Below the pieces are notes generated by a model. The model was not told where the DNA came from. It saw nothing but the letters and a program-made list of their open reading frames with translations, and did not search any database. The translations under genes were made by a program, and so were the position numbers. A stretch of DNA of 46,748 nt from NCBI GenBank assembly GCA_001801055.1, contig MGWP01000034.1, forward strand, positions 1 to 46,748. The letters are read 5' to 3'. This DNA comes from Gallionellales bacterium GWA2_55_18. GTDB lineage: Bacteria; Pseudomonadota; Gammaproteobacteria; Burkholderiales; Gallionellaceae. Within the stretch, counting starts at the first letter, position 1. Each line of letters begins with the position of its first letter. Positions 24,666 through 46,748 of the stretch are shown piece by piece.

Positions 24666-26825
24666 CTATGATGTTTCGAGTAACCCATTATGCCGCAACA
24701 ATGCGTCTATGCTCGGCTCGCGCCCGCGGAATGCGGCGAAGGACTGCATCGCGCCGCGGCTGCCGCCCATCGCCAGTACCTCGCTGCGGAAACGCGCACC
24801 GACATCCGGATTCAGCACGCCGTTTTCCTCGAACAGGCTGTACGCGTCGGCGGACAGCACTTCCGCCCATTTGTAGCTGTAATAGCCCGCCGCATAGCCG
24901 CCGGCGAAAATATGCGAAAAGCTGTGCGGGAAGCGCTGGAACGCGGGTGGGATCAGCACCGCCACTTCGGCGCGCACTTCGTCGAGCAATTGCAGGATGT
25001 CGCTCCGACACGGTGGGGCGGAGCCCTCCGGTGCGGGAGGAGCTGCTGGGCGGCCGCTCTCGCAACCGTCTGGCTTCTCCAGTAACGTGTTGCGGTCGCC
25101 GTTTGCGCCGCCAGCCTCGAAATTGCTGTGCATCAGCATGTCGAACAAAGCAAATTCGATCTGGCGCAGGGTCTGCAAGCCACTCTGGAAGTTCTTCGCG
25201 GCAAGCATCTTGTCGAACAATGCGCGCGGCAGCTTTTCATTGGTCTCTGAATGGCGCGTCATGCCGTGCAGCACGTCCCATTCCCAGCAAAAATTTTCCA
25301 TGAACTGGCTGGGCAGCTCTACCGCATCCCATTCCACGCCGTTAATACCGGACACGGCGAGGTCTTCCACTTCGGTGAGCAGGTGGTGCAGGCCGTGGCC
25401 GAATTCGTGGAACAGCGTGATCACTTCGTCATGGGTGAACACTGCCGGTTTGCCGCCCACCGGCGGCGAAAAATTGCAATTCAAATAGGCGACAGGCGTT
25501 TGTATTCCCTCTGTCCTCTGTCCTCTGCCACCTGTCGTCTGAACACGTCGGCGCGTGATCACGTCATCCATCCACGCCCCGCCGCGCTTGCTGTTGCGCG
25601 CGTACATATCGAGATAAAACTGGCCGACCAGTTGCCCCTGCGCGTCGCGGATATCAAAGAAGCGCACATCGTCATGCCAACTTGGCGCGCTGGATGCATT
25701 GATCTGCAAGCCATACAGCGTTTCGACCAGCTTGAACATGCCGGGTAGCACCGCGTCTTCCGGGAAATACTGTTTCACCTCCTGCTCGGAAAAAGCGTAG
25801 CGTTGCTCACGCAGTTTTTCACTGGCGTAGCCGATATCCCATGATTGCAGTTCCTGCAACCCCAATTCGGCGCGCGCGAATTCGCGCAGTTCCACCAGAT
25901 CTTTTTCGGCAAAGGGGCGTGCGCGTTGTGCCAGTTCGCGCATGAACGTAACTACCTGCTGCGGTGACTCCGCCATCTTGGCCGCCAGCGACAGTTCGCC
26001 GAAGTTGGCGAAACCCAGCAGGCTTGCCTCTTCACCACGCAGCTGGACGATCTCATCCATCAGCTTGGTGTTATCCCACTCCGGCTTGCCGAATTCGCTG
26101 GCACGTGTGCCATAGGCGCGATACATCGTTTCGCGCAAGGCGCGGTTATCGGCAAATTGCATCACCGGCATATACGATGGGGCCTTAAGCGTAAATAACC
26201 AGCCAGTTTTTTCCGCCGCGACCGCTGCCTCCTGCGCCGCCTGCAGCACATCTTCGGGCAAGCCGCTCAACTCGCCCCGGTTCTCGACCACAAGCGTGTA
26301 GTCATTGGTCGCATCGAGCAGGTTATCGGAAAAACGCGACGACAATTCCGCCAAGCGTTCCTGTATCTCCAAATAGCGCGCCTTCTTGTCCTCAGGCAAT
26401 TCCGCGCCGCCGAGGCGAAAGTCGCGCAGCTCGTTTTCGATGATCTTCTTGCGCGCCACACTCAAGCCCGCGAATTCAGGACTGTTGTGCAATGCCTTGA
26501 ACTTCTGGAATAGCGCGAGATTTTGGCCAAGTTCGGCGTAATATTGGGTGATCTTCGGCAGCGTGGCGTTATACACCTCGCGTAATTCCGGACTGTTCAT
26601 CACCGCGTTCAAATGCCCGACCGGCCCCCACGCACGCGACAGCCGTTCGTTGGCATTTTCCATCGGCACTATGAAATCCTGCCAGGCAGGCGGCGCACTG
26701 TCGCTCAGCAGCCGCGTGATCAGCGCACGGTTTTCCGCCAGCAACTGCTCAATCGCCGGGGCAACATGTTCGGGTTTGATCTCCGCAAAGCGCGGTAGGC
26801 CGGAGAAATCGAGTAATGGGTTCAT
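24666..26825 (-). CDS. prlC: oligopeptidase A (M3 family metallopeptidase)
   Basis: This 719-residue cytoplasmic zinc oligopeptidase degrades short peptides, including signal-peptide fragments. The zinc site HEFGHGLHH and downstream Glu in GVEWDAVELPSQF are intact. ATG 26825 (MNPLLDFSGLPRF) replaces the track start 23 codons upstream. The family is usually about 680 residues. The excess is explained by two insertions: roughly 32 residues of palindromic repeat (KPDGCESGRP, then APEGSAPPCR) before DILQLLDEVRAEVAV, and about 10 residues (TTGGRGQRTEG) in a loop before IQTPVAYLNCNF. Both keep the frame. First gene of a likely operon with grx-like, xthA, yhcC-like, ubiU and ubiV. Confidence 0.93.
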   Translation of the reverse strand: MNPLLDFSGLPRFAEIKPEHVAPAIEQLLAENRALITRLLSDSAPPAWQDFIVPMENANERLSRAWGPVGHLNAVMNSPELREVYNATLPKITQYYAELGQNLALFQKFKALHNSPEFAGLSVARKKIIENELRDFRLGGAELPEDKKARYLEIQERLAELSSRFSDNLLDATNDYTLVVENRGELSGLPEDVLQAAQEAAVAAEKTGWLFTLKAPSYMPVMQFADNRALRETMYRAYGTRASEFGKPEWDNTKLMDEIVQLRGEEASLLGFANFGELSLAAKMAESPQQVVTFMRELAQRARPFAEKDLVELREFARAELGLQELQSWDIGYASEKLREQRYAFSEQEVKQYFPEDAVLPGMFKLVETLYGLQINASSAPSWHDDVRFFDIRDAQGQLVGQFYLDMYARNSKRGGAWMDDVITRRRVQTTGGRGQRTEGIQTPVAYLNCNFSPPVGGKPAVFTHDEVITLFHEFGHGLHHLLTEVEDLAVSGINGVEWDAVELPSQFMENFCWEWDVLHGMTRHSETNEKLPRALFDKMLAAKNFQSGLQTLRQIEFALFDMLMHSNFEAGGANGDRNTLLEKPDGCESGRPAAPPAPEGSAPPCRSDILQLLDEVRAEVAVLIPPAFQRFPHSFSHIFAGGYAAGYYSYKWAEVLSADAYSLFEENGVLNPDVGARFRSEVLAMGGSRGAMQSFAAFRGREPSIDALLRHNGLLETS
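25001..25095. repeat. inverted pair of palindromic elements inside prlC
   Basis: On the minus strand 25043-25001 reads GCTCCTCCCGCACCGGAGGG and then CTCCGCCCCACCGTGTCGGAG. The same family occurs on the plus strand at 25056-25095 as CTCTCGCAACCGTCTGGCTT followed by CTCCAGTAACGTGTTGCGG. The first copy closely matches aceE 46281-46315 and the second closely matches the hisF-hisI copy at 36998-37035. The two copies face each other, a REPIN-like arrangement, and occupy about 96 bases, a multiple of three. Confidence 0.85.
25506..25542. repeat. short tandem-repeat insertion inside prlC
   Basis: The plus strand has 7-bp units CTCTGTC repeated in CTCTGTCCTCTGTCCTCTGC. It encodes the TTGGRGQRTEG loop of the M3 peptidase, where relatives have only a few residues between RRR and QTPVAYL. 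The frame is kept. Confidence 0.55.
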
Positions 26826-27025
26826 GGATGAGTGGGAATAAATGCTGCGGTTGAATATCTGACAACAGCATTTTACTACGAAATATTTTGGCAATAGTAC
26901 GGCTTGTGCTGGTCGAAGCGCGATATGCGGCTGTCAAAAAATAAACGAAATCGCCTCTAAAGTCTCCGATAATCGTCAAGCAAACCCAATGAAAACCGCC
27001 GGAGTACGATCAACCTAAAAACGGC

Positions 27026-36194: not shown

Positions 36195-36953
36195 ATGCTT
36201 GCCAAAAGAATCATTCCTTGCTTGGACGTAACTGCCGGTCGCGTGGTCAAGGGCGTCAGTTTCGTCGAATTGCGCGATGCCGGCGATCCGGTGGAAATTG
36301 CGCGCCGCTATGACGAGCAGGGTGCGGATGAACTGACTTTTCTCGACATTACCGCCAGTTCGGATGACCGGGGAATCATCTTCCGCATCATCGAGCAGGT
36401 CGCTTCGCAGGTGTTCATTCCGCTAACCGTCGGCGGAGGGGTGCGCGAAGTCGGCGATGTGCGAAACTTGCTAAATGCCGGAGCCGACAAGGTCAGCATC
36501 AACACTTCCGCCGTGCTGAATCCGCAACTGGTCGCGGATGCCGCCGGGCGCTACGGTTCGCAGTGCATCGTGGTGGCGATCGATGCGAAGCAGACCGGAA
36601 CAGGATGCTGGGAAGTGTTCACCCACGGCGGACGCAAGGCAACGGGGCTGGATGCGGTGAAGTGGGCAAAAAAGATGCAAGGCTTGGGCGCGGGCGAAAT
36701 CCTGCTGACCAGCATGGATCGTGACGGGCAAAAGAACGGCTTCGACCTGCCGTTGACGCGCGCGGTAACAGATGCGCTGGAAATCCCGGTGATTGCCAGC
36801 GGCGGGGTGGGGAACCTGCAACATCTCGCCGATGGGGTGAAACAGGGCGGTGCAGATGCGGTGCTGGCGGCGAGTATTTTCCATTTCGGCGAATACACCG
36901 TCCAGCAGGCCAAGCAGTTCATGGCGACGCAGGGCATCGAGGTGCGGTTATGA
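36195..36953 (+). CDS. hisF: imidazole glycerol phosphate synthase, cyclase subunit HisF
   Basis: This 252-residue TIM barrel uses HisH-derived ammonia to form imidazole glycerol phosphate and AICAR. Catalytic Asp residues are in [14 protein letters not shown] and [12 protein letters not shown]; phosphate sites include [10 protein letters not shown] and [11 protein letters not shown]. Start ATG 36195 is 6 bases after hisA. Its last codons and stop (GAGGTGCGGTTATGA) recur at 37037-37051 and, with two changes, at 37330-37344 over the hisI start. Confidence 0.97.
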
Positions 36954-37344
36954 CACGGTGCGCGAAAGCGACGAGTGCGGGAATAACCGCATCGCACCTC
37001 CTCCCGCAAACGGCTGGCTACGCCAGTAACGTGTCGGAGGTGCGGTTATGACACGGTGCGCCAGCCCTCTATCCAACTTTCCCCCAAAGGGGGAAAGAGC
37101 GATCGCCTCCTCTCCCGCTTGCGGGAGAGGAATGAGGAGAGGGGAGGCGACGAGTGCGGGAATAACCGCATCGCACCTCCTGATGGAACTACTAGCCAAT
37201 CCACTAAGCCCGCAAGCGGGCAAGTGGCTGGTTATTCCGCAAACGGCTGGCTACGCCATAACCAGCGACTTGGCGAGCGTTGTTTGCTCGCCTAGTCGAA
37301 TGGCTAGTAGTTGCATCAGTAACGTGTCGGAGGTGCGACTATGA
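36939..37344. repeat. nested repeat island splitting hisF from hisI
   Basis: Three near-copies of GAGGTGCGGTTATGA lie at 36939, 37037 and 37330. Two long near-identical blocks beginning GCGACGAGTGCGGGAATAAC occur at 36968-37002 and 37146-37180, each followed by an insert and then GTAACGTGTCGGAGGTGCG. The first insert is 23 bp (CCGCAAACGGCTGGCTACGC core), the second a 138-bp REPIN-like element with the same core inside. Further hairpins are CTTTCCCCC/GGGGGAAAG (37077-37097) and the CTCTCCCGC/GCGGGAGAG repeat (37109-37130). No gene lies in the gap. Confidence 0.85.
37181..37318. repeat. REPIN-like element (two inverted REP-like units)
   Basis: Ends at 37181-37209 and 37290-37318 are inverted copies matching at 25 of 29 positions (TGATGGAACTACTAGCCAAT against TGATGCAACTACTAGCCATT). 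Each end folds into its own hairpin: ACTAAGCCCGC/GCGGGCAAGTGG on the left, GGCGAGC/GCTCGCC on the right. Single units of the same type end the dispersed repeats at 2830-2885 and 27030-27090. Confidence 0.75.
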
Positions 37345-45626: not shown

Positions 45627-46748
45627 ATGGCATCAAAACCTGATGACGACCCGCAGGAAACCCGGGAATGGCTGGATGCGCTCGAGTCGGTGCTGGAGAA
45701 TGAAGGCGCGGAGCGCGCCAATTTTCTGCTCGGGCAACTGATCGACAAGGCGCGCGGCTCCGGCGCGGGTGTGCCGTTCAGTGCGACCACGCCCTATTGC
45801 AACACCATCCCGCTGGACAAGGAACAACGCTCGGCAGGCAACCATGAGCTGGAACACCGCATCCGCGCCCTGACGCGCTGGAACGCGATGGCGCTGGTGC
45901 TGAATGCCAACCGCGAATCTCTGGAACTGGGCGGCCACATCGCCACATTCGCTTCGGCGGCGACCCTTTACGACGTCGCGTTCAATCATTTTTTACACGG
46001 CAAGACCGATACGCACGGCGGCGATCTGGTGTATTTCCAGGGGCACTCCTCACCCGGCATGTACGCGCGCGCGTTCCTCGATGGGCGGCTCAGCGAGGAG
46101 CAGATGCACAAATTCCGCCAGGAGTCCGAAGGTGGTGGCCTGTCGTCCTATCCGCACCCGTGGCTGATGCCGGATTTCTGGCAGTTCTCCACGGTGTCGA
46201 TGGGGCTGGGGCCGCTGATGGCGATCTATCAGGCGCGCTTCATGCGCTATCTGGAGCACCGCGGCATCGCGCAAACCGGCGCTCCCGCACCAGAGGGCTC
46301 CGCATCACCGTGTCGTGCCCGCAAGGTGTGGGCATTTCTCGGCGACGGCGAAACCGACGAGCCGGAATCGCTGGGTGCCATTTCGCTGGCGGGGCGCGAG
46401 CATCTCGACAACCTGATTTTCGTCGTAAACTGTAATTTACAACGCCTCGACGGCCCGGTGCGCGGCAACGGCAAGATCATCCAGGAACTGGAAGGGGTGT
46501 TTCGCGGCGCGGGCTGGAACGTCATCAAGGTGGTGTGGGGCCGACATTGGGACAGGCTGTTCGCCAAGGATAAAAACGGCCTGCTGCAACAGCGCATGCA
46601 GGAAGTGGTGGACGGCGAATACCAGACCTACAAGGCCAGGGACGGCGCGTATGCGCGCGAGCATTTCTTCGGCAAACACCCGGAGTTGCTGGAAATGGTG
46701 GCCGATATGTCCGACGATGAGCTGTGGCGGCTAAACCGCGGTGGCCAC
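45627..46748 (+). CDS. aceE: pyruvate dehydrogenase E1 component, N-terminal part
   Basis: The frame is open from ATG 45627 (GGAAAG just upstream) to the window end, 374 codons of about 890, and is absent from the ORF track because it has no stop here. It encodes the homodimeric-type E1: [39 protein letters not shown] in segments, and the thiamine diphosphate motif starting [10 protein letters not shown] and ending [11 protein letters not shown]. It decarboxylates pyruvate in the dehydrogenase complex. Between [10 protein letters not shown] and [10 protein letters not shown] lies an extra segment [15 protein letters not shown], where relatives have about four residues. Confidence 0.95.
46281..46315 (+). 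repeat. palindromic element inside aceE
   Basis: GCTCCCGCACCAGAGGGCTC followed by CGCATCACCGTGTCG matches the minus-strand copy in prlC (25043-25001) at nearly every position. It is translated in the same frame in both genes (APEGSA.PCR). Confidence 0.85.

Follow-up and report, generated by a model that had tools for sequence, protein, structure and literature searches.

A decayed remnant in the aceE gene of a Gallionellales bacterium and its probable source, a mobile double-hairpin repeat

The aceE gene of the iron-oxidiser-like Gallionellales bacterium GWA2_55_18 carries an in-frame insert that is, with high probability, what decay has left of a mobile but non-autonomous palindromic repeat of ~95 bp. 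The repeat appears to constitute an unnamed family of Gallionellaceae and other members of the order that works like the Rickettsia palindromic elements (RPEs) and, as they do, behaves like selfish DNA that the host tolerates. Intracellular Rickettsia and Wolbachia are the best-known carriers of protein-coding palindromes, RPEs having reportedly been described originally by Ogata et al. in 2000. A comparable family now emerges in an environmental betaproteobacterial genus, where its presence or absence differs between close species and where core metabolic enzymes are interrupted in frame. Filled and empty alleles in sister species offer a handle on how proteins absorb insertions of 33 residues, and likewise allow movement without an obvious transposase to be studied. 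A search of one paper collection for work on Gallionella repeats returned nothing.

The window, i.e. the whole stretch of 46,748 nt that was analysed (Table 1), corresponds to contig C34 of genome G000 (1.69 Mb, 72% complete), whose closest named relatives are Gallionella MAGs. The first-pass annotation reported in aceE a repeat shared with prlC, and both the DNA and the reading frame are as claimed. In a within-window search, positions 46282-46315, which the aceE frame reads as CTCCCGCACCAGAGGGCTCCGCATCACCGTGTCG, match prlC positions 25039-25006 (minus strand) at 31/34 bases (91%, E = 2e-7), and a search of the whole genome finds further copies with E down to 2e-10. The common origin proposed for the two inserts is borne out by a covariance model, which places both in one repeat family. 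Beyond that earlier reading, the window also holds a third, full copy and a disrupted fourth, and what aceE contains is a larger double-hairpin element in truncated form.

Table 1. Repeat copies in the window and the genes that host them
Feature	Coordinates	Strand	Basis
Insert in aceE: type A loop arm + 2 nt (36 nt, adding 12 codons), left over from a 99-nt element	46282..46317	-
aceE (pyruvate dehydrogenase E1), N-terminal part; gene cut by contig end	45627..46748	+	TIGR00759 E=5.6e-188
Start of thiamine diphosphate motif, 8 codons past the aceE insert	46341..46370	+
Complete copy inside prlC, net 99-nt in-frame insertion	24997..25101	+ (gene on minus)	110.5 bits; empty orthologues G017, G008, G021
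prlC / oligopeptidase A, open across the insert	24666..26894	-	NF008159 E=1.1e-229; ORF
Complete copy at the end of hisF; first arm TGACACGG provides the stop codon of hisF	36942..37045	+	100.5 bits; sequence
Second copy, in tandem, broken up by other repeat DNA	37042..37265 (about)	+	weak match 37040-37150; sequence

Compared with the empty site of the closest relatives, HRGIVQTGGRKVW, the net gain in aceE is 12 residues. The gene is matched in 57 of the 61 genus genomes sampled, and among these 57 extra DNA at the site occurs only in the window genome and in one of the two aceE copies of Gallionellales RIFCSPLOWO2_02_FULL_57_47 (G013); in the remaining congeners the alignment crosses the insert site without a gap of such size. 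Judged on sequence, the insert residues are derived and non-ancestral, since they are missing in all other congeners surveyed bar that one G013 copy. No scars (partial remnants) are seen in the empty aceE alleles. When aligned to E. coli AceE (PDB 1l8a and others), the additional residues lie within HRGLKDTS-KQTVYAFLGDGE, after one helix and before the strand leading to the GDGE motif. In an AlphaFold2 model of the partial AceE monomer (mean pLDDT 67), the insert region maps to an unstructured stretch between helix 195-212 and strand 235-240. A loop position, as the first-pass annotation had supposed, is consistent with the E. coli AceE alignment and with this medium-confidence model.

The complete form of the aceE element is found in G013 (locus L024), where 99 nt occupy the same aceE nucleotide, in the same orientation, as the window insert. 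This allele reads GGG[CGCA]CCTC-arm B (36)-GAGGTGCGATGCGGACA-arm A (34)-TGCC[CGCA]AGG, the bracketed CGCA being the target duplication. The window allele retains arm A, element-borne bases and a right junction identical to that of G013, and is therefore best read as a G013-type element after a 63-nt deletion. From comparison with the full allele, the deleted segment would comprise one arm and the centre, with the frame kept and 12 residues remaining in the loop ahead of the GDGE strand. As to how two genomes came to share the site, independent insertion at a preferred aceE position fits best. The filled alleles are not sisters, G000 grouping with G017 and G008, and G013_C119 with G020; those three are empty, and an AU test rejects the filled alleles as one clade (p = 0.00026). 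A single insertion, combined either with precise losses in other lineages or with the transfer of a very short tract, is possible but the less probable history; it competes only with independent insertion and leaves the identity of the repeat untouched. Junction, orientation and element-borne bases, identical in both alleles, speak for it, while the AU test, the empty state of the nearest relatives G017 and G020, and the G000 flanks, which resemble G008/G017 up to the insert, speak against it. The two aceE loci of G013 (contigs C119 and C67; L220 and L221) are diverged, one with a full element and one empty, and represent a paralogue or a mixed bin.

The element, about 95-100 bp long, is a double hairpin. 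Two conserved loop arms of 33-36 nt (~34) lie in inverted orientation, each closed by a stem of ~8 bp, and a centre of 16-18 nt contains the inner halves of both stems. Arm ends are CGACACG / CGTGTCG in most parsed copies and form terminal inverted repeats. Stem sequences vary among copies and pair almost perfectly inside each copy. In an alignment that was fitted to a covariance model (105 nt, two hairpins; seeded from eight hand-parsed copies) and that contains many elements read on both strands, 97.3% of stem cells are paired, double changes number 832 (shuffles, 240; slid partners, 113 at most), and the covariation score is 0.876 versus 0.226 shuffled and at most 0.161 with slid partners. 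The hand-made seed alignment agrees (96% paired, score 0.799). Mean identity among 26 equal-length non-redundant copies is 87-88% in the arms, 57-63% in the outer stems and 28% in the flanks beyond. Single-strand folding of whole copies gives mixed z-scores (-3.3 to -0.9), so the structural claim rests on covariation and not on folding energy. Copies of ~165 nt, roughly 60 nt above the model, occur at G007:C4:188489-188652, G027:C4:377024-377188, G012:C19:25416-25580 and G022:C2:3211-3375.

At least nine genes of the window genome, named by NCBIfam, contain in-frame copies (msbA-type ABC, prlC, bioF, bioD, panC, pgeF, aat, pdxA and aceE). Relative to empty orthologues in G017, G008 and G021, the net insertion amounts to 99 nt in the msbA-type gene, prlC, bioF and panC, 102 nt in pgeF and pdxA, and 96 nt in aat, all seven being multiples of three; bioD (L147, G000:C38) has a longer, rearranged insertion with arm pieces, still in frame. 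Across the genus, with flanks scored by a codon-usage model trained on the genes of the window, 21 of 50 non-redundant copies lie within one coding frame, and all 21 keep the frame and are free of stops. Of 13 copies on the + strand, 12 share a single phase, though another phase is open in 57% of copies (chance about 0.006, openness-weighted). The predicted peptides are rich in Ala, Pro, Ser and Gly (e.g. TSDTLLAKPADCGRRCDADTPAPEGSAPPCRAR), and in other genomes a repeated GAGGTGCGGTTATGA continues up to the start codon (ATG) of the gene that follows.

At the junctions, target duplications can be read as GTGCG in msbA, GTCGC in prlC, GGCGG in panC, AGCCA in pgeF and CGCA in aceE, with ambiguous readings for bioF, aat and pdxA. 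The 4-mers at one fixed offset on either side are identical in 32% of the 50 non-redundant copies versus 8.8% between copies, and a uniform 4-bp duplication at a constant offset, true of just that 32%, was rejected as a rule. The duplicated bases often make up the outer half of the stems, and tandem copies are joined via duplicated bases, e.g. at 37042-37050 of the window. Stems that are purely element-borne or purely target-derived were likewise considered, and neither fits every locus: the right stem is native in msbA and aat, and most of the stem is inserted in bioF. The unusual part of the family is this variable, covarying stem that overlaps duplicated target bases. It is tempting, if speculative and on balance doubtful, to propose that the loops are the conserved mobile part and that the insertion site selects the stems or serves as the source for rewriting them. 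Outer stem halves frequently consist of target DNA, of which the centre holds an inverted copy; pairing between centre and target might guide insertion, or template switching might make the inverted target copy. If true, small repeats would have a novel means of selecting and marking the places where they insert.

The covariance model finds 13 strong full-length copies, together with weaker ones, in the incomplete window genome. Copies are present in 24 of 36 congeners and absent from the other 12; order-wide, they occur in 18 of 300 genomes drawn, across 10 genera, and those of other families share the two-hairpin layout. An assembly artefact is unlikely because the same family is found in many independent assemblies. 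Plasmid and annotated phage collections give no match to the repeat. Four viral contigs contain an arm B sequence exactly, one of them adjoining a start codon in a phage-like region. In viral contig IMGVR_UViG_2721755127_000001 (L234, 1611-1646), a lone arm B with a short stem lies just 5' of the start codon of a small gene that is followed by large phage-like ORFs. This lone arm suggests that single-hairpin units occur too.

From the genome comparisons, the repeat is demonstrably dispersed and recurrently inserting, and apparently non-autonomous. Its movement would rely on a mobilising enzyme, insertion duplicating about 4-5 target bases (CGCA in aceE) for a net gain that, between filled and empty alleles, is usually 99 nt or 33 codons. 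Being open in several phases, the element would be read inside genes as a hydrophilic Ala/Pro/Ser/Gly-rich peptide, and selection would spare only in-frame, stop-free and tolerated insertions. Stem pairing may be maintained through template switching or structural selection. No mobilising enzyme was found, and in the two genomes looked at (G027 and G007) no autonomous version with a gene between an arm pair was seen.

Other explanations of the insert fare less well. That the aceE residues form a loop of low complexity, ancestral or convergent, with no relation to the repeat has next to no probability. Ala/Pro-rich peptides are common in GC-rich genomes, but the DNA match of 34 bp at 91%, the empty site in other genus genomes and the complete element at the same nucleotide in G013 contradict such an origin, which the alignment already refutes. 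Removal of the insert at the RNA level, or its skipping by the ribosome as for the bypassed hairpins of Magnusiomyces mitochondria, would yield a protein without the insert. Hairpins within the coding sequence of central, conserved host genes recall that situation; yet neither removal nor bypass needs multiples of three or a stop-free phase, both of which characterize all 21 coding copies, and no curated Rfam model matched at E<=0.1, making this route very improbable.

The strength of the covariation and the tandem copies at an operon junction could also mean that the stems covary for a structural role, as a DNA cruciform or regulatory RNA, and that the element is functional and not selfish. 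This seems unlikely given its patchy presence (one-third of the congeners lack it), the unrelated host genes and the capacity of template switching to perfect imperfect inverted repeats without selection (PMC6649704). Unlikely too is a repeat of REP/REPIN type, moved as a single strand by a RAYT (Y1) transposase. Two inverted hairpin units and one Y1_Tnp gene in the window genome favour it, but this gene has a different, GTAG-type repeat at its flanks instead of these arms, G006 and G022 have copies yet no Y1_Tnp match, the parsed arms have no terminal GTAG or CGTC, and REP stems are conserved where those seen here are variable. RAYT was rejected as the mobiliser, its presence not tracking the repeat. 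The only RAYT-like Y1 transposase gene found in the genome (L101; G000:C55, near 46357-46683) lies between GTAGGGCGGGCT.. hairpin repeats of the other family. At about 1485-1530 of L014 (G000:C52), a GTAGGTCGGGCTCTGCCCGACACGGTGGGCGGAGCCCACCCTAC hairpin has about 20 bases in common with arm A, which is possibly related to a GTAG-type repeat.

Among known systems, the tolerated selfish repeat proposed here is most readily set beside RPEs, which measure 105-146 bp and are fused in frame with many genes (PMC2229807; also PMC10969869); guanylate kinase with an RPE insert stays active (PMC2229807). Both are dispersed palindromic repeats of ~100-150 bp, here with two inverted arms, both have numerous copies in frame within conserved protein genes that are unrelated to one another, and both combine genic and intergenic copies with no known transposase. 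They differ in lineage and in architecture, RPE being one long stem-loop whereas the present repeat has two hairpins with conserved loops and copy-specific stems, and in target duplications, which are short here and given as unknown for RPE in PMC2229807. By sequence comparison, the RPE principle holds for the repeat; membership is not claimed.

GTAG/CGTC REP repeats and their dimers (PMC3733652) also have short hairpin units in inverted dimers, some within genes, and the CGTC type has no dedicated transposase. The present arms differ by the missing terminal tag and by loops that are conserved while stems vary, the unit being a loop of ~34 nt with an 8-bp stem. Bacterial MITEs (Correia, ERIC, RUP and YPAL; PMC2229807) are likewise non-autonomous and <200 bp, with short inverted ends (here CGACACG...CGTGTCG) and target duplication (here 4-5 bp in five genes). 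Unlike MITEs, the repeat is GC-rich without TA ends; in G027 and G007 no arm pair was seen to enclose a gene that might point to a parent insertion sequence. Mitochondrial double-hairpin elements and coding palindromes (PMC6649704 for the coding case) share the double-hairpin layout or inverted repeats within coding sequence, whereas here a dispersed homologous family resides in a bacterial chromosome.
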